Part shown: positions 5,808 to 21,808 of the stretch, in pieces | Numbering within the stretch: the first letter of the stretch is position 1 | Layout of the letters: every line of letters starts with the position of its first letter | Assembly (NCBI RefSeq): GCF_000190435.1 | Contig: NC_015152.1 | Coordinates: 440,458 to 504,457 of the forward strand | Length of the DNA: 64,000 nucleotides | Reading direction: 5' to 3' | Origin: Sphaerochaeta globosa str. Buddy | GTDB taxonomy: Bacteria > Spirochaetota > Spirochaetia > Sphaerochaetales > Sphaerochaetaceae | Notes under the pieces: model-generated | Told to the model about the DNA's origin: nothing | The model's database searches: none | What the model saw: the letters and a program-made list of their open reading frames with translations, nothing else | Position numbers and translations under genes: made by a program

Positions 5808-7274
5808 GTGCGAAAGAAGCCGAACATCGTGTATATTCTTGCAGATGACTTGGGGTACGGTGATGTTTCATCGCTGAATCCCGGTTGTCCTTTCACAACC
5901 ACCAACTTCGACTGTTTGGCAGAGGAGGGCATGAGCTTTACCGATGCTCATGCCACCAGTGCCGTATGTACCCCCAGCCGCTACAGCATTATTACCGGGC
6001 GCTACAATTGGCGTTCCAAGCTTAAGAGTTACGTGCTGGGAGGCTTCTCTCCTCCGTTAATCGACAACAATCGAAAAACAGTAGCGCAGCTCTTGAGAAA
6101 GGGTGGTTACGCTACCCATATGGTGGGCAAGTGGCATTTAGGCATGACCCTTCCCAAGGGAGAGGGCTTTGTTGAGGCCCAGGAGTTTGGTGACAGCTAT
6201 CCGATAGACTACACCAAACCCATTGAAAACGGACCGACCAGCGTGGGGTTCGACTCCTATTACGGTATCAGCGGATCGCTCGATATGCCCCCGTATGTAT
6301 ACATCAAGGACGACCGGTTCACCGCTGTTCCTACCAGGACGACAAAAGGGTCGGGCAAGGGCTTTTGGCGCGAAGGCTTGACTGCCGATGATTTTGTCCA
6401 CGAAGAGGTACTCGATCACCTTACCGACAAGGCCTTGGAAGTAATTCGAGAGAACAAGGACAATCCGTTCTTCCTCTACTTCGCCCTCCCGGCCCCCCAT
6501 ACGCCCATTCTTCCCCATCCCAAATTCAGGGGAGCATCGAATACCAATGCCTATGGGGATTTTGTCCTGCATTGCGACGACGTGGTGGGCAGGGTGCTCG
6601 ATGCCCTCAAAGAGAACGGCATTGATGAACACACCCTGGTCATTCTCACCAGCGACAACGGATGCTCTCCGATGGCTGACTTCGCCGAGCTTGCACAATT
6701 CGGACATAATCCAAGCTATCACTTCCGGGGGATGAAATCGGACATTTTTGAAGGTGGACACCGGGTGCCGCTTCTGATGCGCTGGCCTGAGGTGATAGCG
6801 CCGCATTCAATTTCCAACCACCTTGTCTGCCTATCCGATTTCTATGCTACTGCCGCCGATATTCTTGGTTTCGGCTTGGCCGAGGATGAGGCGGTGGATA
6901 GTGTGAGCCTTCTGCCGTTGCTCTCAGACACTACTCACCCTGAAGTACGAGATTCATTGGTCCATCAGAGCCTTGACGGTTCGCTATCCCTGAGAAAAGG
7001 AGCATACAAGCTTGAGATGTGCAAAGGCTCGGGCGGGTGGTCATACCCTTCAAGCGGAAGCGAGGATGCACAGAATCTTCCTTCCGTGCAGTTGTACAAC
7101 CTTGAGTGCGATATTGCAGAGACGGTGAATGTGCAGGCCGAGCACCCTGATCTGGTAGCTGCCATGAGACAAGAACTTGCCTGCCTCGTAAGGGAAGGCA
7201 GAAGTACATCCGGCCCCCGACAGCTCAACGACGGGGTTGCTGTTTGGGAGACGGTTGCCTGGCTTGACGACTGA
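5808..7274 (+). CDS. Cys-type sulfatase (arylsulfatase family)
   Basis: This 488-residue alkaline-phosphatase-fold sulfatase has PNIVYILADDLGYGD at residues 5-19, with the metal-binding Asp pair at 13-14. The signature CTPSR at 54-58 contains Cys54, which must be oxidised to formylglycine for activity. GKWHLG and the later TSDNGC metal site are also present. There is no signal peptide, so it should act inside the cell on imported sulfated sugars. The GTG start at 5808 is supported by GGAGG 9 nt upstream and by starting right at the conserved core. In anaerobes maturation needs anSME, whose gene in this window is interrupted near 46.2 kb. Confidence 0.92.
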   Translation: MRKKPNIVYILADDLGYGDVSSLNPGCPFTTTNFDCLAEEGMSFTDAHATSAVCTPSRYSIITGRYNWRSKLKSYVLGGFSPPLIDNNRKTVAQLLRKGGYATHMVGKWHLGMTLPKGEGFVEAQEFGDSYPIDYTKPIENGPTSVGFDSYYGISGSLDMPPYVYIKDDRFTAVPTRTTKGSGKGFWREGLTADDFVHEEVLDHLTDKALEVIRENKDNPFFLYFALPAPHTPILPHPKFRGASNTNAYGDFVLHCDDVVGRVLDALKENGIDEHTLVILTSDNGCSPMADFAELAQFGHNPSYHFRGMKSDIFEGGHRVPLLMRWPEVIAPHSISNHLVCLSDFYATAADILGFGLAEDEAVDSVSLLPLLSDTTHPEVRDSLVHQSLDGSLSLRKGAYKLEMCKGSGGWSYPSSGSEDAQNLPSVQLYNLECDIAETVNVQAEHPDLVAAMRQELACLVREGRSTSGPRQLNDGVAVWETVAWLDD

Positions 7275-7323
7275 TACTTTTTCCCGTGAAAAGGGGTTTC
7301 CCTATGGTATACTGACTGCACCT

Positions 7324-9555
7324 ATGAGAAAGCCTGAGCATAAAATTCCTGCATCCAGAACACTGCTGTTGTTCCTTCCCGCCCTTATACTCTGTTTTGT
7401 CATACTCATTCTCGCCCAAAACTGGATGTTGATGACCGTGCGCAGGGACAAGCAGGAGCAGACCTACTCGATGCTCCACCTCATTCGTTCCACCACCGAC
7501 CTTTCGTTGGACCAGATGTACAAGCTCAGCCAGATGCTGCTCTTGGACAACGATATCGCCAAATTCATCTACCAGGGAGAGATTGAGAGCGGTTCGGTCG
7601 ATATTCAGACCCTCATCGATGCAAAAGGCGTCCTGCCTACGGCAACAAACATCAATGCCATGCTGGCCGAGGTCTACATATACTCCAACCGCAGCGGCTA
7701 TATCCTCTCTTCTCAGAATGCCTTCCTGGAACCTGAGAAAATGTACCCTTCCATGTTCGCCTTCGAGGGATTGAACTACCGTCAGTTCCGCAGCAAGTAC
7801 CTGACACCCGCCTTCAACCGTTCCTTCTTTCCCCAAACCGATGCCTTGGTGCATGGGAGAAATCGGTCGGTCATTCCGTTGGTCCAGACGTTTCCTTTGA
7901 ATAATCCCGCAGCCAATGCGGGCAAGATCATGCTGCTGCTCGACAGCAGCTACATCGTGGACTTGCTTTCGCAGCAGATAGAGGGGGCGAGCCCCACCGT
8001 CTATGTCACAGACAGCAAGGGAGCCGTGATCACCTACTCGGGCGACCCCGCCTTCATCCTGGGGGATGGGTATGCCGACGGTCAGCATCGAGTGTCCATT
8101 GAAGGCCAGGAGTATGTGCTCTCGGCCCTTTCCTCGAACGCAAGCGGTCTGAGGTTTTTCAGCCTGCTCTCGCTCAAGGAAATCAACGCCATGCTCAATC
8201 CCATGTGGCCTGTGCTGGTGATTCTCAGCATCGGGATGTTCCTGCTGCTCTCCTTCTTTGCCGTCTATATGCTTGCACGCAGCAACCGCCACTGGACCGA
8301 GCTGCTCGGCTTGGTCGATGTAAGCGGGAAACCGCTTCCCTATGAGCAGGCGGTCGGGTACATCAAGAATATCGTTGAGGAGGACCGAAGCAAGGTACGC
8401 CAAGCCGGTGGCACTCCCTTTATCACCGACACATTCTTTCGTCGATTGATTCACGGGAAAATGCTGGGGACAGCCGAGATTCAGGCGATGCTCAAGCAGG
8501 TCCAGAAGGATATCGATTTGAACTCTCCCAACACCTTCCAAATGGTGCATATCGCAATCCACGATGTGCAGGATTTTCTATCCAGTGATCGGCTGGAGGA
8601 CATCGACTTCACCCGAATTGCGGCCCAAAAGCAGGCGATGCGTGCGTTCGGCCAGCAGTACTACCTCTACATGGACTTCTCATTCTCGATTTGGATCATG
8701 CTCTGGCATGGTGACGGCCGCTTTCTGGATACACAGATCGATCAGTTCTATAAGGAGTTCATCCAAGTCTCGCCTTGTATCACGAGCATGGCGGTCAGTT
8801 CGGCCAAGCACAGTCTTGATGAGATTTTCTCGGCGACCAATGAGTGCAGCGAGGTCCAGCAGAGTCTGCTCAGTGAGAAACAGGTGGAAATCATGCGCCG
8901 TTATACCGAGTTGAGCCTCAAGCGTGAGCCGTACCACTACAGCCTCGATATGGAGCGCAAGCTCTCCGGTGCTGTCATGAAAGGGGAGCGGCAGGCCTTG
9001 GAAGAAATCCTGAGGACCATCGAGCAGGATAACTTTGTTGCCAGGAATCTGGGGCCTGAAGAGCATGCCAATCTCATGAAGGTGCTCTATGCGACGGCGA
9101 TCAAGCTCAGTCAGAGCCTCAGGCTGACACTCCACCAGTCGGTGTTTGAGTCGTATGCCGAGGTCAAGCAGTTCTTTCTCTCCCAGGCGTTGGCGATCAA
9201 CAGGGCAAAGAGCGACAAGGATGAGGTGCTCGTCCAACGGATTACTGGCTATATACACGACCATTATGCCGACCCGGGCTTGAACCTCTCCAATATGGCG
9301 GGTGACTTCGGCTTGAAGGAGAGCTTTCTCTACCACTTCATGCAGACCCGTATGGAGACATCGTTTGCCCAGTATCTGGAAGTCTACCGTCTTGAGCGCG
9401 CTCTTGCCCTGTTTGCCGAGAAGCAGATGACGATCAGTGAGATTACAACCTTCTGCGGGTACTCCAATGCCCAGACCTTCCGCAGGGCGTTCCAGAAACG
9501 TTACGGCATGCTGCCTTCCGATTACCAGAAAACGGTGCTGTATCAGAAGAAGTAG
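7324..9555 (+). CDS. Membrane-bound AraC-family regulator, YesN-like
   Basis: This roughly 743-residue protein has a transmembrane helix at about 13-37, a large extracytoplasmic sensor region, and a second helix at about 294-318. A C-terminal AraC double helix-turn-helix covers about residues 636-738 (ISEITTFCGYSNAQTFRRAF and neighbours). This is the architecture of single-component sugar sensors that sit beside LplABC importers and activate them. The ATG at 7324 is preferred to one 87 nt upstream that lies inside the sulfatase gene, because the protein then begins with a basic stretch before the first helix. It probably senses the importer's ligand outside the membrane and acts on the 2011-2124 control region. 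Confidence 0.85.
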   Translation: MRKPEHKIPASRTLLLFLPALILCFVILILAQNWMLMTVRRDKQEQTYSMLHLIRSTTDLSLDQMYKLSQMLLLDNDIAKFIYQGEIESGSVDIQTLIDAKGVLPTATNINAMLAEVYIYSNRSGYILSSQNAFLEPEKMYPSMFAFEGLNYRQFRSKYLTPAFNRSFFPQTDALVHGRNRSVIPLVQTFPLNNPAANAGKIMLLLDSSYIVDLLSQQIEGASPTVYVTDSKGAVITYSGDPAFILGDGYADGQHRVSIEGQEYVLSALSSNASGLRFFSLLSLKEINAMLNPMWPVLVILSIGMFLLLSFFAVYMLARSNRHWTELLGLVDVSGKPLPYEQAVGYIKNIVEEDRSKVRQAGGTPFITDTFFRRLIHGKMLGTAEIQAMLKQVQKDIDLNSPNTFQMVHIAIHDVQDFLSSDRLEDIDFTRIAAQKQAMRAFGQQYYLYMDFSFSIWIMLWHGDGRFLDTQIDQFYKEFIQVSPCITSMAVSSAKHSLDEIFSATNECSEVQQSLLSEKQVEIMRRYTELSLKREPYHYSLDMERKLSGAVMKGERQALEEILRTIEQDNFVARNLGPEEHANLMKVLYATAIKLSQSLRLTLHQSVFESYAEVKQFFLSQALAINRAKSDKDEVLVQRITGYIHDHYADPGLNLSNMAGDFGLKESFLYHFMQTRMETSFAQYLEVYRLERALALFAEKQMTISEITTFCGYSNAQTFRRAFQKRYGMLPSDYQKTVLYQKK

Positions 9556-9645
9556 GGGACTATACGGTATAAAGAGCATGAATTGTGGATAAAATTCCCT
9601 TGTTTCACATTCCGTGCCCTATTTCAGACATGAAAACCTACAAAT

Positions 9646-9675
9646 TTGTTGCTGGTTTGCAAAAAATCGTATAAT
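9646..9675 (+). promoter_or_regulatory. Promoter of the iron-type ABC operon
   Basis: A perfect TATAAT at 9670-9675 is preceded by TTGTTG at 9646-9651 with an 18-bp spacer. An alternative -35, TTGCTG, would leave only 15 bp. The start codon at 9742 lies about 60 nt downstream. Confidence 0.5.
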
Positions 9676-9741
9676 CGTTGACCGCCCTATGTGAGCATGA
9701 TACCTTCAAGTGAGGGGTTGTCCCCGAAAAGGAAGGTTTGC

Positions 9742-10758
9742 ATGAAACACACACAACGTGCTTTGGGTTTTCTCTTGATTATGCTGCTTGTTCTCGGCTC
9801 AGTCTTTGCCGCCGGTTCGAAAGAAGCTGCAGCACCTGCCAGTACAGCCTTGGAGGACAAGGTCTCCATGTATGCCAGTATTACCTCCATTGAGCCGATC
9901 ATCGAAGCATTTACTGCCGATACCGGGGTTGCTGCAGAGAACACCCGACTATCGACTGCACGCTTTGTCTCCACCGTGCTCACCGAGTTCGAAGCCGGCA
10001 AGCTTGCCGCCGACGTACTGCAGGGACCGCTTCCGGTGCTGGAAATCCTCAAGGAACAGGGCGTGATCGCCGACTACGTCTCCCCGATGGGCGAGACCTA
10101 TCCCGAGTGGGCGAGAAGGGACGGCATCTACCTCTTTGGCATTGAATATGTCGCACTCATCTACAACACCGAGCTCGTTGCTCCGGCCGATGTCCCCAAG
10201 CGCTATGAAGATTTGACCGATCCCAAGTGGAAGGATCAGATTGTCATGGCAAACCCTGCCAGCCATGCAACGACCATCAGCTGGCTCGTAGGTTTGAAGG
10301 AACATGTCTTTGCCACCGAGAAAGAGTGGTATGACTTCCTGCGCGGTCTTGCTGCCAACAACCCGATGTTCGTCGCATCCTTCAGCCCGACTCCCGCCCC
10401 GATCGAGAGCGGTGAGAAGAAAATCGGCATTTCGATGCCCAAGTACATCGTAACCAAGGCTCCGGCTCCGCTGGCGTGGGCACAGGTATCGCAGCCGATG
10501 CTCGGCAGCCCCCGTGCCATTGCCATCACCAAGGACGCCCCCCATCCCAACGCTGCGAAAGCATTCATGGAGTACTGGCTTTCCAACAAGGCCATGGGCA
10601 TGCTGGCAAACGAAGTCGGAGAGTATGTGCTGACTCCGGGTGTCTACCCCCCGATCAAGGATATTGAGAAGGCTGAGGTCATCGCCATTCGCGAGCTTTC
10701 CGACGAGGAACTGGTGAAGTGGGGTGCTGAGTTCGAAAAGATTTTCGAAAAGAAATAA
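9742..10758 (+). CDS. Iron(III)-type ABC transporter binding protein, FbpA-like
   Basis: This 338-residue binding protein has the signal peptide MKHTQRALGFLLIMLLVLGS then VFAAGSKEAAAPA, with no lipobox. The mature part matches the FbpA/SBP_bac_6 group (VSMYASITSIEPIIEAF at the start, and PKRYEDLTDPKWKDQIVMA in the middle). The ATG at 9742 has AAAAGGAAGG 5 nt upstream. An ATPase and a double-length permease follow in the same order as fbpABC. Ferric iron is the usual substrate, but this group also includes thiamine and 2-aminoethylphosphonate binders, and sequence alone does not settle it. Confidence 0.82.
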   Translation: MKHTQRALGFLLIMLLVLGSVFAAGSKEAAAPASTALEDKVSMYASITSIEPIIEAFTADTGVAAENTRLSTARFVSTVLTEFEAGKLAADVLQGPLPVLEILKEQGVIADYVSPMGETYPEWARRDGIYLFGIEYVALIYNTELVAPADVPKRYEDLTDPKWKDQIVMANPASHATTISWLVGLKEHVFATEKEWYDFLRGLAANNPMFVASFSPTPAPIESGEKKIGISMPKYIVTKAPAPLAWAQVSQPMLGSPRAIAITKDAPHPNAAKAFMEYWLSNKAMGMLANEVGEYVLTPGVYPPIKDIEKAEVIAIRELSDEELVKWGAEFEKIFEKK

Positions 10759-10784
10759 CCGATACGGAAAGCAGGAAGAAGCGG

Positions 10785-11873
10785 ATGGAAATTCAGATCA
10801 GCGGCGTCAAGAAGTACTATCATTCCGAGGGGAAAATCATCAAGGCACTGGACGGGGTGAACCTCACCATTCCAGCGAATAAGATTTTTACCCTGCTTGG
10901 TCCCAGCGGTTGTGGTAAAACCACGCTGCTTCGGAGCATTGTCGGCCTGGAAACCCCTGATGAAGGGGAGATTCGTATCGGGGACACCATTGTGTGGTCA
11001 AGCGAGAAACGCATCGATGTCCCTACCGAGAAACGGGGACTGGGCATGGTGTTCCAGACCTATGCAATCTGGCCGCATATGGATGTGTTCAACAATGTCG
11101 CCTATCCGCTTCAGAACATGAAGCTTCCCAAGGATGAGATTGAGCGCAGGGTCGAGAAGACCCTGCAGTTCGTCCAGCTTGAGGGCTTCGGTAGTCGTCC
11201 TGCCACTCGTCTTTCGGGCGGTCAGCAGCAGCGTGTCGCCCTTGCGAGGGCGCTCGTAGCCGAGCCCAAGGTCATTTTGTTCGATGAGCCGCTTTCCAAC
11301 CTTGATGCCAAGCTTCGTGAGGAGACCCGCAAGGAGCTGCGCAGCTTCCTCAGTGAGCTGCAGATTACCGCAGTGTATGTAACCCATGACCGCATTGAAG
11401 CGCTGGCTCTCAGCGACCAGATTGGTGTCATGCGGGCGGGCAATATTATTGAGATTGGAGACCCGAAGAAGATTTACTTCGACTCCGAGCATCAGTTTGT
11501 AGCCGATTTCATCGGTCGTTCCAACCTGCTTCCGGTGACCATCCAGGAGCAGGGGAAGGACTTCACCAAGGTTGTTTCCGCCATTGGAACGTTCACCTGC
11601 AGCAAACGGGAGTTTCCTGCAGGCAGTGAGATCACCCTCTGTATCAGGCCGGAGTTCGTCGACCTGATCGATCCGGCGGATAAGGGGAAGCATCAGAATA
11701 CCTTGACCGGAAGAATGCACACCATGGTGTTTGTCGGAGAGGTGTATGAGAGTGAGATCATGGTCGGCGATCAACTGATAATGGTGAAAGTCGATCCCGA
11801 TTCGAAGGTGAAGGAAGGGGATGAGGTGGTGGTTTCCATCGCAGCAGAGCACTGTCTGTTGGTAGCAAGGTAG
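10785..11873 (+). CDS. ABC transporter ATP-binding protein, FbpC/PotA-like
   Basis: This 362-residue ATPase has Walker A GPSGCGKTT at 39-47, the signature LSGGQQQRVALARAL, Walker B VILFDEPLSNLD, and a C-terminal TOBE-type regulatory domain. It energises import by the binding protein and fused permease encoded on either side of it. The start codon follows the binding-protein stop by 26 nt, and the permease gene begins 7 nt after its end, so the three genes form one operon. It might also be shared with other importers that lack their own ATPase, but its position argues for a dedicated role. Confidence 0.9.
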   Translation: MEIQISGVKKYYHSEGKIIKALDGVNLTIPANKIFTLLGPSGCGKTTLLRSIVGLETPDEGEIRIGDTIVWSSEKRIDVPTEKRGLGMVFQTYAIWPHMDVFNNVAYPLQNMKLPKDEIERRVEKTLQFVQLEGFGSRPATRLSGGQQQRVALARALVAEPKVILFDEPLSNLDAKLREETRKELRSFLSELQITAVYVTHDRIEALALSDQIGVMRAGNIIEIGDPKKIYFDSEHQFVADFIGRSNLLPVTIQEQGKDFTKVVSAIGTFTCSKREFPAGSEITLCIRPEFVDLIDPADKGKHQNTLTGRMHTMVFVGEVYESEIMVGDQLIMVKVDPDSKVKEGDEVVVSIAAEHCLLVAR

Positions 11874-11880
11874 GGCTTCT

Positions 11881-13563
11881 ATGGCAAAAACACGGCATAC
11901 AAAGCTTACCTATCTATTGATTCTTATTCTCGTTCTGCTCACCATGGCCCCGGTGGTCATGTTGGTGATCGGAAGCTTTTCGAAAGGGCTGCGCAACGTA
12001 GGCGCCTTTACCTTCGACAAGTATATCTCCGTCTACACCGACCCCGCCTTGTTGGCGGTCCTTCTCAACACCGTGGTGTTTGTAGGCGGCTCTGCACTCT
12101 TTGCGACGGTTCTCTCACTTTTTCTGGCATACCTGAACAACCGGACGAACATCCATTGGAAGTTCTTGTTCAAGGTCCTTTCGGTAGTGCCGATGATGAT
12201 CCCCCACGTATTGTTTGCAGTCAGTTGGGCGCTTTTGCTCAATCCCTCCAACGGGATTCTGAACCTGTGGCTTCAGCAGGCTTTTGGTTTGGCAAAGGCT
12301 CCTTTCAACATCTATTCTCTTCCGGGTATGATCATGGTGGAAGGCTTGCTGGACTTGCCGATTGCATATCTGATCATCTCTCCCGCCATGGCCTCGTTTG
12401 ACGTATCGCTTGAGGAGTCTTCAAAAGTATTCGGCGGGAGCAACATGAAGACACTCTTCAAGATCACCCTGCCTGTGTTACGTCCTGCCATCCTGGCCGC
12501 CTTCATTTTGTGCGTAGTGCGCTGTCTTGCCTCCTTTGCCGTTCCTTCGGTTTTAGGAATGCCAGGACGTGTATACGTTCTTGCGACCTACATCTACCGA
12601 ACGGTCAACACAGGCTTTATCGCAGACTACGGCAAGGCTGCTGCAATCGGGATGAGCATTCTGGTACTCTCCATCTCCCTCATTTATGTCTACCGCTATT
12701 TCACCCGCAGCAGCGAGAAGTTCGTCACGGTCTCAAGCCGCGGCTTCAAACCGGTAGTGATCGAGCTCAAGAAGGCAAGAATTCCCTTGTTCATCGTCCT
12801 GCTGCTGGTCTCCTTTGTTTTGATCGTTCTTCCCGTTCTGGTTTTGCTCTATACCTCGTTCGTCCCGTATTCGATGGTCCCGAGCGCAAGAGCGTTCTCC
12901 ATGATGAATCTTGAGCACTGGAAGACGGTCATGAAGGACCCGATTTCCCTGCTCTCCTTGAAGAACAGTCTGTTCCTCGGAATCGTGGGGGCGACCTTGG
13001 GTACGGTCCTTTCGCTTTTTGTCGCCTATGTCATCGTAAAGGTGAAGAGCAAGGCTGCCGGTGTGTTGGAGTCGCTTAGTTTCCTCTCCTTTTCCTTCCC
13101 TGGTATCGTCATCGGTATCGGGTTCATGTGGTTCTTCATCAAGACGCCGCTCTATGCAACCATCTGGGCTCTCTTGATCGGCTACATCGCCACCTACCTG
13201 CCGTATGGCATTCGCCCGTTGACCAGTGCATTTGTGCAGATTCACAGCCACTTGGAGGAGTCCTCGGCTGTGTGTGGTGCAAGCCTGCTGACCACCATGC
13301 GACGCATCGTGGTCCCTCTCCTGGTTCCAGGCATTGTCTCCGGCTGGGTGTTGATGGCTACGATGTTCCTGCGCGAACTTTCCCTTTCGGTGGTGCTCTC
13401 CCGTCCTGGTACGGAGGTTCTGGCAGTTCAGATTCTTCGTTTCAGCGAGGATGGGCTGTGGGGCAGGCTCTCTGCCTTGGGAATCATCATGATTTTCTTC
13501 TCAACACTGTTGGTGGTGGCAGCCAACTTGGTGGGCAACCACTATAAGCCTGCTCATAACTAA
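11881..13563 (+). CDS. Iron-type ABC transporter permease with two fused domains
   Basis: This 560-residue membrane protein contains two consecutive permease domains, each with an EAA-type coupling motif: SLEESSKVFGGSNM near residue 175 and HLEESSAVCGASLL near residue 457. This duplicated layout is characteristic of FbpB/ThiP-class permeases, where one polypeptide forms the whole channel. It is the last gene of the operon and is followed 22 nt later by a strong Rho-independent terminator. Confidence 0.9.
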   Translation: MAKTRHTKLTYLLILILVLLTMAPVVMLVIGSFSKGLRNVGAFTFDKYISVYTDPALLAVLLNTVVFVGGSALFATVLSLFLAYLNNRTNIHWKFLFKVLSVVPMMIPHVLFAVSWALLLNPSNGILNLWLQQAFGLAKAPFNIYSLPGMIMVEGLLDLPIAYLIISPAMASFDVSLEESSKVFGGSNMKTLFKITLPVLRPAILAAFILCVVRCLASFAVPSVLGMPGRVYVLATYIYRTVNTGFIADYGKAAAIGMSILVLSISLIYVYRYFTRSSEKFVTVSSRGFKPVVIELKKARIPLFIVLLLVSFVLIVLPVLVLLYTSFVPYSMVPSARAFSMMNLEHWKTVMKDPISLLSLKNSLFLGIVGATLGTVLSLFVAYVIVKVKSKAAGVLESLSFLSFSFPGIVIGIGFMWFFIKTPLYATIWALLIGYIATYLPYGIRPLTSAFVQIHSHLEESSAVCGASLLTTMRRIVVPLLVPGIVSGWVLMATMFLRELSLSVVLSRPGTEVLAVQILRFSEDGLWGRLSALGIIMIFFSTLLVVAANLVGNHYKPAHN

Positions 13564-13585
13564 GAACATACGTACTACAAACAGG

Positions 13586-13616
13586 CCCCTTCTTGCAGAT
13601 GCAGGAAGGGGTTTTT
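13586..13616 (+). terminator. Rho-independent terminator of the iron-type operon
   Basis: CCCCTTC at 13586-13592 pairs with GAAGGGG at 13605-13611, with further TGCA/TGCA pairing inside, followed by TTTTT. It ends the operon on the plus strand. Confidence 0.9.
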
Positions 13617-13682
13617 GCAATCAGGATACACAACTATCTGATGTGTCTCTGATCATTTCTTGAATAGGTATCACGAGAAGTG

Positions 13683-13740
13683 TCGGATAATCACTTGAAA
13701 TAATCCGATAATACTAGCTTTATCGGATAATATCGGATAT
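13683..13740 (+). promoter_or_regulatory. Operator cluster with four TCGGATA half-sites
   Basis: The half-site occurs at 13683-13690 (TCGGATAA), inverted at 13703-13711 (ATCCGATAA), and again at 13720-13728 and 13731-13740. The second and third form a perfect 9-bp inverted repeat around TACTAGCT. The third and fourth are direct repeats 10 bp, one helical turn, apart. The cluster ends just before the ribosome site of the AlbA_2-domain gene, so binding there would block its expression. Autoregulation by that gene product is inferred. Confidence 0.65.
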
Positions 13741-13750
13741 GGAGGATGCC

Positions 13751-15100
13751 ATGCGATATGAATCAATTGAGTCAAAAATCCTGGAATTTAAGGACCGGTT
13801 AGATGACTACTCCCGACTGCTGGAGACAGTCACAGCCTTCGCAAATACGCAGGGAGGAACAATCATCATCGGTATCAGGGATAGTGATTGGTTGATTGTC
13901 GGTTTAGACAGGGACGATATTGAACGCTATAGCCAAGAACTACCTCTGGCTATCGTAGATGCCGTATCACCACAAATTGCGGTAGACTTGTACGAACAGC
14001 ATATCGGAGGGAAGACCTGTGTAACAATCCGTGTATTTCCAGGCCCGCAGAAACCTTATTTTCTGAAAAGAGTAGGGTATCCCCTTGGGGTGTTCATCCG
14101 TTTTGGCGCTCATAACAGGGTTGCTGATACCTATGCAATCGAGCAATTCTCCCAGAGCCGTAGTGGGGTACGGTACGAACAGCAACCCTGTCCAGAGATT
14201 TCCTATGAGGATCTCTCGAAAGATTTGCTTGGGAATCTGTTCACCGACTATGACCAATCGATACTCATTGGAGCCGGATATGCTTTAGCAGAAGTATCGG
14301 GCAGGACCATCCCAAATGTTGCTGGTACGCTGTTGTTCTACCCTAACCATCAAAAAATCATTGCAGAGTCAGGAATTACGGTAAGTGTCTATGCAGATGA
14401 TGATAAACGGTACTTGATCAAGAAAGAGGATTTCTCTGGTGGGCTCATTCCCATGGTTGAGCAAGTGTACGCTTTCATCATGAGTCTTCTGGGCTCACAC
14501 TATGAGCTGGATGGATTGGTCAAGCGTCCGGTAGCGTATGACATACCGCAAACTGCCATTCGTGAAGCGCTTGTCAATACAGTGGCACATAGGGCTTACG
14601 ACTATGAGGCTCCTACGCGGATTACTCTTTTTCCGGATAGGATTGAATTCTTGAATCCGGGTACGTTCTATGCTCCCATCAATCCAGAGAATCTCAAGGA
14701 AGGCCTTTCTCGATACCGAAATCCCTTGATTTCCGATGCCTTGAGGAAGAAAGGATATATGGAAAAGCAAGGTATAGGTATCAACCTCATCATAACAAGT
14801 TGCCTTGAAGCCGGTCTCGGTGAGCCCCAGTTCATCGAGCTTGAGCATCATGTGAAACTGGTCATGTTCAGAAGGCAATCAAGCGCCGATTATGTTTCTG
14901 ATGCTCCAGAGTATCCCTACGACATTCCTGTCATGAAGCGATATTTCTCAGCAAAAGGATTCTTTTCCTCCAAGGAATTCGCCCAATACATTGGTAAATC
15001 ACTATCTATGGCCAAGAAGGTACTGTTTGATTTACAACAGCAGAAGGTGGTTGAAATGGTTGGCAAAGGTCCTGCCACGAAGTATCGGTTTATCAACTAG
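13751..15100 (+). CDS. AlbA_2 (Schlafen-like) ATP-binding putative regulator
   Basis: This 449-residue protein starts with YESIESKILEFKDRLDDYSR and FANTQGGTIIIGI, the hallmark of AlbA_2/divergent-AAA proteins. A C-terminal GHKL-type ATPase half follows (VNTVAHRAYDYEAPTRITLF and the NPG motif of IEFLNPGTF), then a winged-helix-like tail. Such proteins are usually annotated as transcriptional regulators or ATP-dependent DNA helicase-like proteins; the biochemical role is not established. The ATG at 13751 is preferred to 13739 because GGAGG lies 5 nt upstream of it. It stands alone behind a repeated operator and converges with an XRE gene, overlapping it by 4 bp. Confidence 0.75.
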   Translation: MRYESIESKILEFKDRLDDYSRLLETVTAFANTQGGTIIIGIRDSDWLIVGLDRDDIERYSQELPLAIVDAVSPQIAVDLYEQHIGGKTCVTIRVFPGPQKPYFLKRVGYPLGVFIRFGAHNRVADTYAIEQFSQSRSGVRYEQQPCPEISYEDLSKDLLGNLFTDYDQSILIGAGYALAEVSGRTIPNVAGTLLFYPNHQKIIAESGITVSVYADDDKRYLIKKEDFSGGLIPMVEQVYAFIMSLLGSHYELDGLVKRPVAYDIPQTAIREALVNTVAHRAYDYEAPTRITLFPDRIEFLNPGTFYAPINPENLKEGLSRYRNPLISDALRKKGYMEKQGIGINLIITSCLEAGLGEPQFIELEHHVKLVMFRRQSSADYVSDAPEYPYDIPVMKRYFSAKGFFSSKEFAQYIGKSLSMAKKVLFDLQQQKVVEMVGKGPATKYRFIN

Positions 15101-15384
15101 ATGAATCGGCCTGCAGGCACATCGAACAAGGATCCCAGCTTAAGGGCCATAGCCCTGCTTATGGGTTTGATCCCGTTCTCCATGTTGGATACAAACTGCT
15201 TGGAAATTCCCAGCTTGCTGCCAAGCTCGGTCTGATTCATATGGGCAAGCCTCCGGTAGAAACGCAAATTGCCTCCTGGAGTCTCTTCGGCCTTCGACTC
15301 CTTGTACCAAGCCATCCGTTGAACGTCCATCATGATTGTGGGTTCTTCTTCAATGTGCATATGACTATCAATCTCCTTATTCAT
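15097..15384 (-). CDS. Small XRE-family helix-turn-helix protein
   Basis: This 95-residue protein has a C-terminal helix-turn-helix (NQTELGSKLGISKQFVSNME at about residues 50-69) and a short acidic N-terminal extension. Its start overlaps the end of the nitrilase gene by 8 bp, so they share a transcript. Its end overlaps the convergent AlbA_2 gene by 4 bp. The size fits an antitoxin or a local repressor, but no toxin-like partner is adjacent: the upstream gene is a full-length enzyme. The DNA target is unknown. Confidence 0.75.
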   Translation of the reverse strand: MNKEIDSHMHIEEEPTIMMDVQRMAWYKESKAEETPGGNLRFYRRLAHMNQTELGSKLGISKQFVSNMENGIKPISRAMALKLGSLFDVPAGRFI

Positions 15385-16336
15385 ACCTAAACCTCACCGT
15401 TCTGGTATCCTCTTCCTTCCCTGTTTTCTCTGAGAGAGGGGAGTAGAGCTCGGGCCTGCGGGCCTTCATCCATCGTCTGCCATTGCTTGAGGGAAGCAAT
15501 GAAGCATCCAACTCAGCAATAACCATATCCTGCTCGATCGCTTTTGACTCTGCAAGTACCTCCCCGTAGGGATCGAGGATCATGGCATTGCCGGTACGTA
15601 CCTCATCGTCATCCCTTCCAACCCCGTTGCTGAAGATCAGGAACATGCCGTTGTCATGGGCACGGGAGGGAAGCCAGCGCATCAACCACTGTCGGCCCTT
15701 AGGGCCTTGGAACTCAGAGAGGAGCTCTGCTTCTTTTGTTGAACGCTCCTCCCACAGTGCAACATCGATTCGTTTCATGCCCTTCGGACTAGCAGAGTTG
15801 CACCCGCCTGTCTGGTGGGGGGCGAGCAGCACCTCAGCCCCCAGAAGGGCTGTGATGCGGGCATTCTCCACGATGTTGTTATCGTAGCAGGTAAGTACTC
15901 CCAACCTCACTCCCTCTGGAATGTCGAAGACGGTGTAGGAGGACCCGCTTTGCATATGGGCGCTGATGAAGGTATGCAGTTTTCTGTGTGTGTGGACAGT
16001 GCCGTCGCTGAGCGTCACGACATAGGAATTGTAGAGCTCGCCTTGCTCTGAAATTTCAATCAACCCCGCTCCGATGGTCATGCCATATTGCAGGGAAAGA
16101 CTCCTCAGATAGTGGACCGATGAACCGGATGGAACTGGTTCTGCAAGGTCTATGATCTCTTCTTTGCTGAGATTGCGCACATGCCAGTAACCGGTGATGC
16201 ACATCTCGGGAAAGACGATGAGGTTGACTCCTTTGTTTGCTGCCTGCTCTACAAAGTGTGTAATGGTCTTCAGGTTTGCCTGCTTGTCCCCCGCCTTATG
16301 CCGGAACTGTACGCTCGCTGCCTTGATGTTGTGCAT
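15377..16336 (-). CDS. Carbon-nitrogen hydrolase, nitrilase superfamily
   Basis: This 319-residue cytoplasmic amidohydrolase carries the nitrilase triad: Glu44 in VFPEMCITGYW, Lys119 in THRKLHTF, and Cys150 in GVLTCYDNN. It should hydrolyse an amide or nitrile in a small metabolite. The N-carbamoylputrescine amidase, omega-amidase and aliphatic amidase branches are all possible. I chose the ATG at 16336-16334, with GGAGG 6 nt upstream and MHNIKAASVQF as the natural start, over a longer frame that would overlap the divergent dehydrogenase gene. The XRE gene follows in the same operon. Confidence 0.85.
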   Translation of the reverse strand: MHNIKAASVQFRHKAGDKQANLKTITHFVEQAANKGVNLIVFPEMCITGYWHVRNLSKEEIIDLAEPVPSGSSVHYLRSLSLQYGMTIGAGLIEISEQGELYNSYVVTLSDGTVHTHRKLHTFISAHMQSGSSYTVFDIPEGVRLGVLTCYDNNIVENARITALLGAEVLLAPHQTGGCNSASPKGMKRIDVALWEERSTKEAELLSEFQGPKGRQWLMRWLPSRAHDNGMFLIFSNGVGRDDDEVRTGNAMILDPYGEVLAESKAIEQDMVIAELDASLLPSSNGRRWMKARRPELYSPLSEKTGKEEDTRTVRFRYE

Positions 16337-16432
16337 GAAATCCTCCGCAAAAACTATACCACAGAATTGTTGCCACACTTCATTGTAAAATCCAAAGAAG
16401 GTGGTAGGCTGAAGGGCGGAGGTGAAAACACC

Positions 16433-17866
16433 ATGCTTGGCAATACTGATTTTCATTCCTTGGATTCTCGGATCAAGGTACCCTCATACGATCGATCAGC
16501 TCTAAAACCGCATATTGTACACCTAGGGCTAGGGCACTTTCATCGCTCGCACTTCTGTTACTATCTGCACCAACTTTTAGAGCAAGGAGTGACGGACTGG
16601 GGCATCGAGGAGATTGATCTTGTCCCCTCCCATACAGACGAGATTGCAAAAAAGCAGGAGTATCTGTACACCCTCTGCAGCAGAGACCCTGCCGGAGGCC
16701 GACAGATGACGGTCATCGAGTGCATCCTTGGCTATACCAAGGGGTGGGAGGACAAGAGACAAGCCATCGCTCTGATGAAGCGGCCTCAGACAAAACTCAT
16801 CACACTCTCCATCACTGAAAAGGGATATTGCTACGACAACCACACCCAGGCCCTGGACTGGCAGCACCCCCTGCTGCAGCACGACCTGCATAGTCCCCAG
16901 GATCCACAGTCGGCGATAGGATTTCTTTCGCTCGCTCTGTTTGAGCGTTGCCAAGAGAACAGGGAGAAGCTCACCATCGCCTCCTGTGACAACATACCCT
17001 CCAACGGGCATGTGTTGAAACGGTGCATCCTCCAATACTGCTCCAAGGTTTTTCCATCCATCGTACCGTGGATTGAACAAAAGGTTGCTTTCCCTCTATC
17101 CATGGTGGATAGGATTACCCCCAGCACCAAGACCGAAGATATTCAGTTTATAGAGAGGGAGTATGGCTTGAGGGATGAGTGGCTGGTGGTCAGTGAACAC
17201 TTTCTGCAGTGGGTGATCGAACCCGATGGCTTGGAAGGACTCCCGCCATTTGAGAAGGCGGGTGCCTTGGTCACCAAGGACGTTGAAGCCTTTGAGACGA
17301 TGAAGATCAGGCTGCTCAATGGAAGTCACTCGGCTTTGGCGTATCCTGCGCTCCTGTCGGGGTATACCTATGTGGATGAAGCCCTTTCTGATTCAATGCT
17401 TCGGTCGTTCATTCGGGATCGCTACATGCGTGAAGTCGGGGAAACCCTGCTTCCCATCCCCGGGTACGACTTCGAGGCATACAAGGACCAGCTGATCGAA
17501 CGCTTTTCCAATCCGTATTGCAGCGATACGCTGCTGCGCCTTGCCCAGGACGGTTCCAAGAAATTCGCCAATGCCCTGGTTCCGGCACTCAGGATTGCTT
17601 TGGAGAAAGGCCTGCCTCACAAGGCGATGGTCTGCACGCTCGCCCTGTGGGCTCATTTCCTACGTAGGCATGCATCGTTGGTTGATGACCAGGCTTGTGA
17701 AGCTCTTATACAGGCCGTTTCACTGCTGGAGTTAGATGTGAAACCGTTCTTCGGTCTCATCGGGCTTGCAGGTGAGCGGTATGAGGTCCTTGAGCCTTTG
17801 GTTCGGTCGTATCTCACATTGATTGAAACTGAAGGAGTGATACCTGTATTGGCTCACTGTCAATGA
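16433..17866 (+). CDS. Mannitol dehydrogenase-family oxidoreductase
   Basis: This 477-residue NAD(P)-dependent polyol/uronate dehydrogenase has HIVHLGLGHFHRSHFCYYLH (Rossmann start of the family), VDRITPS, and VVSEHFLQWVIEPDG, followed by LLNGSHSALAYPALLSGY with the catalytic Asn-Gly-Ser-His region. Length and motifs fit mannitol 2-dehydrogenase, fructuronate reductase (UxuB) or arabinitol dehydrogenase; the sequence alone does not decide. GGAGG is about 10 nt before the ATG. It diverges from the nitrilase gene across 96 bp. No uronate-pathway partner is nearby. Confidence 0.85.
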   Translation: MLGNTDFHSLDSRIKVPSYDRSALKPHIVHLGLGHFHRSHFCYYLHQLLEQGVTDWGIEEIDLVPSHTDEIAKKQEYLYTLCSRDPAGGRQMTVIECILGYTKGWEDKRQAIALMKRPQTKLITLSITEKGYCYDNHTQALDWQHPLLQHDLHSPQDPQSAIGFLSLALFERCQENREKLTIASCDNIPSNGHVLKRCILQYCSKVFPSIVPWIEQKVAFPLSMVDRITPSTKTEDIQFIEREYGLRDEWLVVSEHFLQWVIEPDGLEGLPPFEKAGALVTKDVEAFETMKIRLLNGSHSALAYPALLSGYTYVDEALSDSMLRSFIRDRYMREVGETLLPIPGYDFEAYKDQLIERFSNPYCSDTLLRLAQDGSKKFANALVPALRIALEKGLPHKAMVCTLALWAHFLRRHASLVDDQACEALIQAVSLLELDVKPFFGLIGLAGERYEVLEPLVRSYLTLIETEGVIPVLAHCQ

Positions 17867-17892
17867 TAATATTGATTCAACAAGTGCCCACG

Positions 17893-17923
17893 AAAACGGC
17901 TGCCACAAAAACGTGACAGCCGT
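17893..17923 (-). terminator. Rho-independent terminator of the outer-membrane-protein gene
   Basis: On the minus strand ACGGCTG pairs with CAGCCGT, with additional CAC/GTG pairs around a T-rich loop, and the stem is followed by TTTTC. The stem also lies after the plus-strand dehydrogenase gene but has no T-run in that direction. Confidence 0.75.
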
Positions 17924-17945
17924 CCCACGCAAAACATGGAAAAAA

Positions 17946-19640
17946 TTACGGCAGCGAAATAACTGCTTGCACCGTAAGGCGCCCGAAATCAAATATGCCA
18001 CTGCCAATGGTGCCTGTCAGGTCTGCATACAAGGTGGCATTCTCGTTGATATCCCAGTTCATGCTCAAGGAGTGAGTTAACGTCGTTACCCAGTCCATTG
18101 AGTGAGTTGTCAGTCCAAGCGTACCGCTATACGCATCAGATGTGGTGGTTGTAGTTACGCCTCCAGTTTCAGTCTTGGTTGTCGTTCTGACATAACTTTC
18201 TTCGGTCTTGCTAGTACTATACTGCATAGACATATTAAGTTTTGTTCCAAGGGTAAATCCCACATCCCATGTTTCTGGTTGATAGGTAAATGCACAAGAA
18301 GGGAGTAGGTCAACAGCAAGGAATGTGTTTGTGTCCCTATCACCTAATGCGCTGTTCGTATTCTCATATTCTCGAGTCACGGTGGTTGTGGTGTCTGCCA
18401 AGCCATCGTTATTCGTATCAGTCTTCGTAATGGTTGTTCGTTCTTTTACCTTCTCATCACCGTAACTTGAGAAATAAACCCCTACCTCAGGAGCGAGCTT
18501 CAACGACATTCCTTTGCCCAAATCATAGGAGAAACGATGCCCAACCATACCTGAAATGCTCATGGTTGTAGTCAATCCGAACTTTCGTTCATCAGAGGCA
18601 TAACTATAGGTACTCTTTGCTTTATTCATCGTAGTGCCCGATAGCGTGTAATTATATCGCTGGGTTTCAGTGAGTGTGGAATAGGTTGGAGAATAGAAGG
18701 TGAGATTCAGATTTCCACCAAAGTAGAAATCTTTTGATTCACTCTTCATGAAGGGTGAAGGCATATCCTGACGATATCCGCCCGCAATCTGGAAAAAGCC
18801 AGTTTTATCCTTGACATCATCATGCAATACATCGGTCAGGGATGAAGGCGTCTTAACAGGGGTCGAGTAGGTTACTTCTCTTTTTCCTGATCCATTATCA
18901 TCACTGCCGAATCCTAGCATTGCGGAGAACGTTTGATCAACTTTCTCTCCAGGCATGAACAGAGGTGCACGCAATTCCATGCGGAAATCGTTTGCCTTTC
19001 TGCGCTGCTTTTCTTCTCTTGTATAATCAGCTTTTACGTCTGGTGCAACTCCGGCGGCTGCATTGTCATAGTAATATGTGGTTTTCTCTGAAAAATTGTT
19101 GCCAATTACTGAGTTATCCTTATTATAAATTCTTATGGATCCACCAATTACCATACCATTCAATTCAGTCAAATATTGGGCTCGGTCGTCTACCTCTTTT
19201 GCAAGGCTACCATAGTATTTTGTCTCTACTCGTTGCGACAGCCATTCCTGTGTATTCGAGCCAACTGTTTTTGTATTATAGCTATCACTGATAGAATTTG
19301 CGCCGGTGAACCAGCTTGTGGAATCATGATAGAGGTTGGTAAACAAGGACCAAGGGCGATTGGTGTTGAAGTATGCACCAAGGCTGACTGCACCCAGAGT
19401 ATTTGTTCCTGAGCTGTTGGAAGTTGAGCTGATCACCCTTGTTTGATTCAGATTGGCCAATCCTCCAAAAATGAAGGTCTTGTCCAAGTCAAGGAATCCT
19501 TGCCCGGCATCAGATGCCTGGTCGATAGGTGTTGTGAATAGTCCATTGCTCGTGTTGTACAGCACAGAAGTAGAAAACGGTACGGCAAGGAGTAATCCAC
19601 CCAAACAGAGGATGAATAGCAATGTGATTGATTTCTTCAT
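17946..19640 (-). CDS. Putative outer-membrane beta-barrel protein
   Basis: This 564-residue protein has a clear signal peptide (MKKSITLLFILCLGGLLLA). The remainder is rich in Thr, Ser, Tyr and alternating hydrophobic residues. There is a TDTNNDGLADTTTT segment resembling an Asp-rich calcium loop, and the C-terminus IFDFGRLTVQAVISLP is compatible with a terminal membrane strand. I recognise no named family. AAGGAG lies 7 nt before the ATG, and the gene stands alone with its own terminator. A porin or surface protein is the likeliest role; a secreted surface-layer protein cannot be excluded. Confidence 0.6.
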   Translation of the reverse strand: MKKSITLLFILCLGGLLLAVPFSTSVLYNTSNGLFTTPIDQASDAGQGFLDLDKTFIFGGLANLNQTRVISSTSNSSGTNTLGAVSLGAYFNTNRPWSLFTNLYHDSTSWFTGANSISDSYNTKTVGSNTQEWLSQRVETKYYGSLAKEVDDRAQYLTELNGMVIGGSIRIYNKDNSVIGNNFSEKTTYYYDNAAAGVAPDVKADYTREEKQRRKANDFRMELRAPLFMPGEKVDQTFSAMLGFGSDDNGSGKREVTYSTPVKTPSSLTDVLHDDVKDKTGFFQIAGGYRQDMPSPFMKSESKDFYFGGNLNLTFYSPTYSTLTETQRYNYTLSGTTMNKAKSTYSYASDERKFGLTTTMSISGMVGHRFSYDLGKGMSLKLAPEVGVYFSSYGDEKVKERTTITKTDTNNDGLADTTTTVTREYENTNSALGDRDTNTFLAVDLLPSCAFTYQPETWDVGFTLGTKLNMSMQYSTSKTEESYVRTTTKTETGGVTTTTTSDAYSGTLGLTTHSMDWVTTLTHSLSMNWDINENATLYADLTGTIGSGIFDFGRLTVQAVISLP

Positions 19641-19879
19641 ACATTGTCTCCTTTTGTGATTTTCTTTATGCTAATAGTAATAGTACCGAAAATCTATTCT
19701 GTCTATATTTCCAACACCTCGCATTCGGTAATTTTTTAGCTTTTTTTGTTATTCCTCTATAGTAATAGATATATTTTGACACTTTGATAAATTATGTAGA
19801 TTTGTAGAATCTGGATTTCAACAGGTGTTGCTAAGAAGCTCAAGCTGTGGGACAATCAAGGGAGTTTGGGGGGACAGAC
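19641..19879. other. AT-rich divergent intergenic region
   Basis: These 239 bp separate the minus-strand outer-membrane-protein gene from ugd and hold no gene. Likely promoter pieces are TAGACA, 17 bp, TATTAC reading leftward, and TTGATA with TAGAAT (15 bp apart) reading rightward. Neither is a strong match. Confidence 0.35.
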
Positions 19880-21172
19880 ATGCATTTGACCATTGCGGGA
19901 ACCGGGTATGTAGGATTGGTGGCAGGCGTGTGCTTTGCCAAGGTAGGGCACCATGTAACGTGTGTGGATATCGACGAGAAGAAGGTGGAGATGCTGAACA
20001 AAGGCCTCAGCCCCATCTACGAGACTGATTTGCAAGAGTATCTGCAGGAAGGTCTGGAGAAGGGCCTTCTGCACTTCACCACCAACTACCGGGAGGCATA
20101 TAAAAGTCCCGATGTCATCTTCATCGGCGTCGGCACTCCCGAGCTTCCCGACGGATCGGCCAACCTGAGTTACGTAGCTTCAGTTGCCCGCCAGATTGCT
20201 GAGAACGTCGAACGAGACTGCCTGGTCGTTGTGAAGTCCACCGTTCCGGTGGGTACGAACGACAAGGTCGAGCAGTTCATCAAGGACTCATTGGTCCACC
20301 CGGTGCGTATCGAAGTTGCCTCGAATCCTGAGTTCCTTGCCCAAGGCACCGCAGTGCATGACATGATGCATGCCCAGCGCATCGTCATCGGGGTGGAGGA
20401 CAAGCATGCAGAAGGGATCCTGCGTGAACTCTATAAACCCTTCAACCTGCCTGTGGTCGCCGTCAGTCGACGCAGTGCGGAGATGACCAAGTATGCAGCC
20501 AACGATTTTCTTGCATTGAAAATCTCCTACATGAACGATTTGGCGAACCTCTGTGAACTTGTTGGCGCCAACATCGAGGACGTGGCATTGGGCATGTCCT
20601 ATGACGAACGCATCGGCTCACGCTTCTTGAAAGCCGGCATCGGCTATGGCGGCAGTTGCTTCCCCAAGGACACCAAGGCGTTGCAGTATCTGGCAACCCA
20701 GTACGGCTACAACCTCAGGACCGTGAGTGCTGCAGTGGATGTGAACAACGAGCAGCGCTACAAGCTCTATCGCAAGGCCTGCAATCGTATGATCACCTTC
20801 AACGGCATCAAGGTGGCGGTGCTTGGTTTGGCCTTCAAGGCAGGTACCGATGACCTGAGGGAGTCGCCTTCCATCTATAATATCCCGCTTCTCTTGGATC
20901 AAGGAGCTTTAATCACTGCCTTCGACCCTGTTGCAGAGGAGAACTGCAAGCGCCAGTACCAGTTTGAGATGCAGTATGCCTCGAGTGTTGAACAAGCGCT
21001 TACCGGTTCCCAGGTCTGCTTCATCTTTACCGATTGGCCTGAGATCCGAAGCCTTTCTCCCTCGGTCTTCAAGCAGCTCATGCGTACACCTCTGGTCTAC
21101 GACGGAAGGAACCTCTTCAACCCCAGGGCCATGTTGGAAGCCGGGGTGGAGTATTACAGCATCGGGCGCTGA
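19880..21172 (+). CDS. ugd: UDP-glucose 6-dehydrogenase
   Basis: This 430-residue enzyme oxidises UDP-glucose to UDP-glucuronate with two NAD+. It shows the Rossmann motif IAGTGYVGLVAG at the N-terminus, NPEFLAQGTAVHD, and the catalytic GYGGSCFPKD with Cys260. The C-terminal NAD/UDP domain includes DGRNLFNP. The ATG at 19880 follows GGGGGGA by 5-6 nt and puts the conserved motif at residue 5. The product feeds surface polysaccharide synthesis. The next gene starts 1 nt after its stop codon. Confidence 0.95.
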   Translation: MHLTIAGTGYVGLVAGVCFAKVGHHVTCVDIDEKKVEMLNKGLSPIYETDLQEYLQEGLEKGLLHFTTNYREAYKSPDVIFIGVGTPELPDGSANLSYVASVARQIAENVERDCLVVVKSTVPVGTNDKVEQFIKDSLVHPVRIEVASNPEFLAQGTAVHDMMHAQRIVIGVEDKHAEGILRELYKPFNLPVVAVSRRSAEMTKYAANDFLALKISYMNDLANLCELVGANIEDVALGMSYDERIGSRFLKAGIGYGGSCFPKDTKALQYLATQYGYNLRTVSAAVDVNNEQRYKLYRKACNRMITFNGIKVAVLGLAFKAGTDDLRESPSIYNIPLLLDQGALITAFDPVAEENCKRQYQFEMQYASSVEQALTGSQVCFIFTDWPEIRSLSPSVFKQLMRTPLVYDGRNLFNPRAMLEAGVEYYSIGR

Positions 21173-21173
21173 C

Positions 21174-21773
21174 ATGAGTGAGGATACGCGACCCTTTCAT
21201 GGAGTAATAAGCTCTATTCAACCAAGAATAAGGCTCAATCGCTCGTTTGACCAATCTTAGCACAGCTATCTTGGGTATGCTCTGACAATACTAGAGGCAG
21301 AGGGAACTCCCTTGCTGGTAGGCATCAGTGAGAAGCTGCAGGAAAAGCATCAGTTGAGGGTTGGTGTGGTGGTTTCAGGCTGTTGCAAGCCAGTGGAAGA
21401 CAGCAAGTTGGAGAGCGTGGACTACTACCGGGTAACCGGCTTCAAGGTGTTTGAAGCCGAATCAGAGCAACCTGTTCCTCCGTCGTTGGAGACCTATCGA
21501 CAGCGGGGTCCTAGACGCCTTGCTGCCAAAACGTACGAAACGGCATGTACATCTTGTATGTGGGGTTGCAGGATGGCAGTTGAAATCATCGTCGACCAGT
21601 GGAAGCCCTGGATTCGCAAATATCGCACGGAGACCTTCTGTTATGGTCCCAAATCATGCAAAAACTACCGTCCCGGTCCCAATCGCCGTGTAACCGGAAG
21701 AAACAAAATGGTGTACATTGAAGAGGATTGGGTGGATGAGATGCTGACAGAACACAGAGGTGAGGACGAATGA
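21174..21773 (+). pseudogene. Cys-rich conserved protein split by an in-frame amber codon
   Basis: One frame runs from the ATG at 21174 to the TGA at 21773 (199 codons) with a single TAG at codon 29 (21258-21260). Upstream it reads RPFHGVISSIQPRIRLNRSF; downstream it continues HSYLGYALTILEAEG and later CTSCMWGCRM and FCYGPKSCKNYRPGPNRR. From memory, uncharacterised homologues read without a break through a RSFD..SHSYLGY segment, so the stop most likely replaces one residue. The Cys pairs suggest metal binding; function is unknown. It starts 1 nt after the ugd stop. If not dead, it could be made from a TTG start at 21312 as a 153-residue C-terminal piece, or by readthrough. Confidence 0.65.
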
Positions 21774-21782
21774 CAAAGAAAC

Positions 21783-21808
21783 GGGTCTCTCGCTTTAGCG
21801 AAAGACCC
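21783..21808. terminator. Hairpin terminator between convergent genes
   Basis: GGGTCT pairs with AGACCC and TCGC with GCGA around a TTTA loop, with one mismatch between the two blocks. It begins 9 nt after the Cys-rich gene and lies between two convergent genes. T-runs are short on both sides (CTTTTCG and GTTTCTTTG), so it may serve both directions. Confidence 0.65.

Follow-up and report, generated by a model that had tools for sequence, protein, structure and literature searches.

A lone in-frame amber codon in an accessory gene of Sphaerochaeta globosa most likely reflects one recent nonsense mutation

Introduction

How does a reading frame that is otherwise well kept come to carry a single amber codon near its start? 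This question is raised by a locus in a 64,000-nucleotide stretch of the genome of Sphaerochaeta globosa str. Buddy (the window, in what follows), where a frame of 199 codons located right behind ugd is interrupted at codon 29 by TAG. The first-pass annotation of this DNA offered three options for the codon: a nonsense mutation of very recent origin, a mistake in the sequencing, or a stop that is recoded. Here we weigh them using the homologues of the gene, the translation machinery encoded in the whole genome and the substitutions that separate the window from its relatives.

Results

A single TAG interrupts one conserved gene

The frame begins with the ATG at 21174, one base past the ugd stop (TGA, 21170-21172), and ends with the TGA at 21771-21773. 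The TAG at 21258-21260 is its only in-frame stop, all the remaining codons being open, and both the coordinates and the translation bear out the earlier description of a lone TAG in an otherwise open 199-codon frame directly following ugd. The features of the locus are the following:

19847-21172, plus strand: ugd (UDP-glucose/GDP-mannose dehydrogenase family), the upstream neighbour
21174-21773, plus strand: disrupted orthologue of an uncharacterised 199-codon family (predicted OB-fold plus a C-terminal four-Cys domain)
21174-21260, plus strand: standard-code translation, a 28-residue peptide reaching no further than strand 1 of the predicted OB-fold
21258-21260, plus strand: in-frame TAG, codon 29; TGG (Trp) in G005, L003, L017 and L018, TTT in L002/L016, Ala, Ser or Thr elsewhere
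21312-21773, plus strand: longest standard ORF past the stop, 153 aa from the TTG of codon 47; a restart product is possible but unlikely

Homologues found in Sphaerochaeta, in further Spirochaetales genomes, in Bacillota and in other groups were aligned over the TAG. The alignment across the junction, which the first-pass annotation had proposed as a check, is gapless on both sides, indicating that the frame is one gene and neither a chance overlap nor a gene with a downstream start. A start located past the TAG was ruled out, since the homologues extend upstream of it with the invariant QPRIRLxRSFDE block. Upstream of the gene, ugd is also present in G005, L002 and L003.

The stretches on either side of the TAG, SxQPRIRLxRSFDE just before it and HxYLGY just after it, are invariant or nearly so and belong to the best-conserved parts of the family, whereas codon 29 itself is variable, the homologues having W, F, A, S or T there. 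Nothing in the aligned sequences points to a special residue at codon 29.

TAG behaves as an ordinary stop in this genome

One reading of the locus is that the TAG is recoded, by way of pyrrolysine, of a dedicated suppressor tRNA or of a reassignment in the code (selenocysteine is not applicable to TAG). An in-frame UAG in a conserved frame that is open on either side of it is indeed what pyrrolysine-type recoding would present. The search for a suppressor tRNA or pyl genes, also suggested earlier, was run on the genome. The Rfam tRNA model gave 48 tRNA hits in the whole genome (47 distinct sequences by ARAGORN), and none of the 48 has the anticodon CTA according to ARAGORN. The pyrrolysyl-tRNA synthetase (PylS) was not found in the genome, the model scoring 27.8 bits against a curated cut-off of 178, with sub-cut-off matches in nearly all the control genomes too, while RF1 is present above its own cut-off. 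Pyrrolysine and a suppressor tRNA were ruled out by the tRNA set, the PylS score and the presence of RF1. The locus also differs from pyrrolysine-type genes in that UAG occurs in none of the homologues found and there is no conserved position for a special residue.

Reassignment of TAG was ruled out as well. TAG terminates 16 of the 58 non-overlapping ORFs in the 64 kb window and, in a comparison with the nearest relative (G005) made within that window, most of the TAG-ending ORFs with an orthologue there stop at the same residue, so these terminators are both ordinary and shared in position. On this genomic evidence, comprising RF1, the shared TAG terminators and a tRNA set that includes no suppressor, the codon is truly read as a stop and TAG is, to judge from the genome, an ordinary stop in this organism. 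Recoding, which is also contradicted by the TGG or other sense codons of the relatives, is left with practically no probability.

The amber codon probably arose from TGG on the window branch

In G005, which belongs to the same genus and has the gene at the same site behind ugd, codon 29 is TGG (Trp) and the frame is open. The two genes differ at 20 of 600 nucleotides and are 97.6% identical in amino acids past the TAG. Among the same-genus outgroups TGG is also found in L003, L017 and L018, and TTT in L002 and L016 (L002 and L016 are probably one contig, and likewise L003 and L017), and in remoter relatives the residue is Ala, Ser or Thr. TAG occurs at this position in no homologue found, and all the alignable intact ones encode W, F, A, S or T. 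As in a nonsense pseudogene, intact orthologues in close relatives thus have a sense codon where the window has a stop. Since TGG is present in both the closest relative and the same-genus outgroups, the ancestral codon of the clade was most likely TGG, and one G-to-A transition on the window branch would account for the TAG.

We propose that this transition converted codon 29 from TGG (Trp) to TAG in the window lineage very recently. Translation would then halt after 28 residues, ahead of the second strand of the predicted OB-fold, and the gene would most likely be a functional null in which further decay has not yet begun.

The substitution pattern agrees with a recent event. Using the same-genus outgroups, eight synonymous and two conservative amino-acid changes were assigned to the window branch beside the nonsense change. 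Pairwise dN and dS relative to G005 are 0.011 and 0.117, and dN is no higher past the TAG. Since the other changes on the branch are mostly synonymous, the lesion is young. Of the 1782 possible single-base changes in the gene, 94 create a stop, and about 0.6 nonsense changes are expected among the 11 changes of the window branch if there is no selection against them, so the occurrence of one stop is unremarkable provided that the gene is dispensable.

The main rival is an error of base calling or consensus, in which case the relatives' TGG would be the true codon here as well and the gene would be intact. What makes it worth considering is that the gene, otherwise under constraint, has just one lesion, which differs from the codon of the relatives by one base. 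However, the genome was assembled as one contig and is 99.97% complete, and comparison of about 50 window orthologues with G005 revealed no second clear nonsense change or frameshift; the remaining stops flagged in the window, few in number, are located, as read from the alignments, in antisense frames or upstream of what are likely the true starts. The lack of any other convincing lesion in these orthologues suggests good sequence quality, and hence that a real mutation is likelier than an error. Moreover, substitution errors that create stops should be rarer than real young pseudogenes. We infer that the base is real and consider an error quite improbable.

The gene lies at the edge of a tract shared with a related species

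The disrupted gene forms the right edge of a tract of about 15 kb that is unusually similar to G005. Window positions 6900-21800 are mostly 96-99% identical to G005 (91-98% over the right part), compared with about 78-92% in the left flank and 73-88% in the right flank, the right side averaging about 82%. Within a few hundred bases of the end of the gene the identity drops to 73%. This pattern points to probable interspecies recombination, by which the tract would have been exchanged between the window species and the G005 species, and the shared tract explains the high identity of the gene to its G005 orthologue.

Inside the tract, positions 17880-19820 have no alignment to the G005 region, in which the flanks of this stretch are nearly adjacent. 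The unaligned stretch contains, on the minus strand at 17946-19640, a 564-aa ORF with a signal-peptide-like start.

Predicted fold of the family and the prospect of residual function

Searches of the family against Pfam, NCBIfam, PHROGs, PADLOC and PDB sequences gave no significant or usable match for the family itself. A Pfam hit to Molybdopterin Fe4S4 was dismissed, since its 14.1 bits fall short of the 22.7-bit cut-off and it covers only 19 residues. An AlphaFold2 model of the relative L002, the best of five, has a mean pLDDT of 79, with most of residues 11-90 above 90 (the other four models have mean values of 51-61). In this model the first strand spans residues 6-21 and the second starts at residue 30, just past the position of the stop.

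The N-terminal domain of the model has the characteristics of an OB-fold, with a best VIA Z-score of 9.8 to PriB (4gs3) over 84 residues at 18% identity; Foldseek E values are only 0.02-0.1. Residues 1-100 of the predicted fold resemble the chains of PriB and SSB, the OB-fold single-strand-binding proteins. Unlike these, the family also carries a second domain, at the C-terminus, with CxxC and CxxxxxC motifs, and its sequence matches neither Pfam above the cut-off nor solved structures; binding of single-stranded DNA is, from the predicted fold, only conceivable. The C-terminal domain is modelled less certainly, and its CxxC and CxxxxxC motifs look like a putative zinc site.

Could the gene still work despite the stop? 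If a near-cognate tRNA read through the UAG at a low level, or if translation restarted at the TTG of codon 47, enough protein might result, and in favour of this are the constraint that the downstream sequence still displays in the pairwise comparison, the tolerance of several residues at codon 29 and a GAGG-type sequence shortly before the TTG. Purifying selection on the remaining gene is equally expected from readthrough or restart, the divergence since the split being too small to discriminate. The restart product, however, would be devoid of the invariant SxQPRIRLxRSFDExxHxYLGY block and the first OB-fold strands. The same TTG and upstream GAGG occur in the intact gene of G005, which argues that they are no adaptation to the stop, and the TAG is common to no homologue found. 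We consider a gene that still works very improbable, and likewise a leaky or regulated UAG, bypassed by readthrough or restart, with which the strain would make little of an otherwise intact OB-fold protein. Presumably the cell makes neither full-length nor restarted protein in useful quantity.

A dispensable gene with a patchy distribution

Only 8 of the 26 Sphaerochaeta genomes compared have the gene, intact in seven of the eight, and 18 are without a match; in the phylum, a match to the family was found in only 3 of the 393 genomes sampled. Decayed copies are present in Asaccharospora (L014), with in-frame stops and loss of frame, and in G029, where the gene is split and has stops. Because 18 of the 26 genomes of the genus are without the gene and two other lineages have decayed copies, the distribution indicates that it is a dispensable, patchily distributed accessory gene, the loss of which should cost the cell little.

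Taken with the TGG codon of the relatives and the mostly synonymous change, this dispensability favours the first of the three options, while the recoded stop is contradicted and the sequencing error is unlikely. We conclude with considerable confidence that the locus contains a single recent G-to-A nonsense mutation in an accessory gene, very young and most likely leaving a functional null. This makes it a young pseudogene of the ordinary kind and no case of stop-codon recoding, and one recent mutation in a dispensable gene explains the lone amber codon in its well-kept frame. The resemblance to known bacterial pseudogenes created by a single nonsense change extends to the single-base distance from the sense codon in the closest relative, the intact rest of the frame, the accessory nature of the gene and its independent decay elsewhere, and we found no point of difference. 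The family itself, conserved and scattered over Spirochaetota, Bacillota and others but without a Pfam or NCBIfam model, should be named in annotation.

Neighbourhoods of the family in other genomes

A search of plasmid records gave no match to the family. In some Bacillota and IMG/VR contigs the neighbours of the gene look like serine recombinases, a caspase, a TIR-like protein (by a weak match) or a subunit of a restriction system, and mobile islands may carry the gene or insert next to it. On three IMG/VR contigs (L086:1122-2465, L088:922-2553 and L087:1360-4409) it is found near the contig ends, about 0.3-0.7 kb from ORFs that by eye resemble serine recombinases, placed as if mobile elements carried it or integrated there. 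In Asaccharospora irregularis (L014:787-3888) a weak match to TIR, a protein with a caspase domain and two unnamed genes precede the decayed copy, a locus whose gene content looks like a defence island. The same two unnamed genes are also located upstream of the family gene in L007, which contains an M1E1E6-like integron cassette domain.
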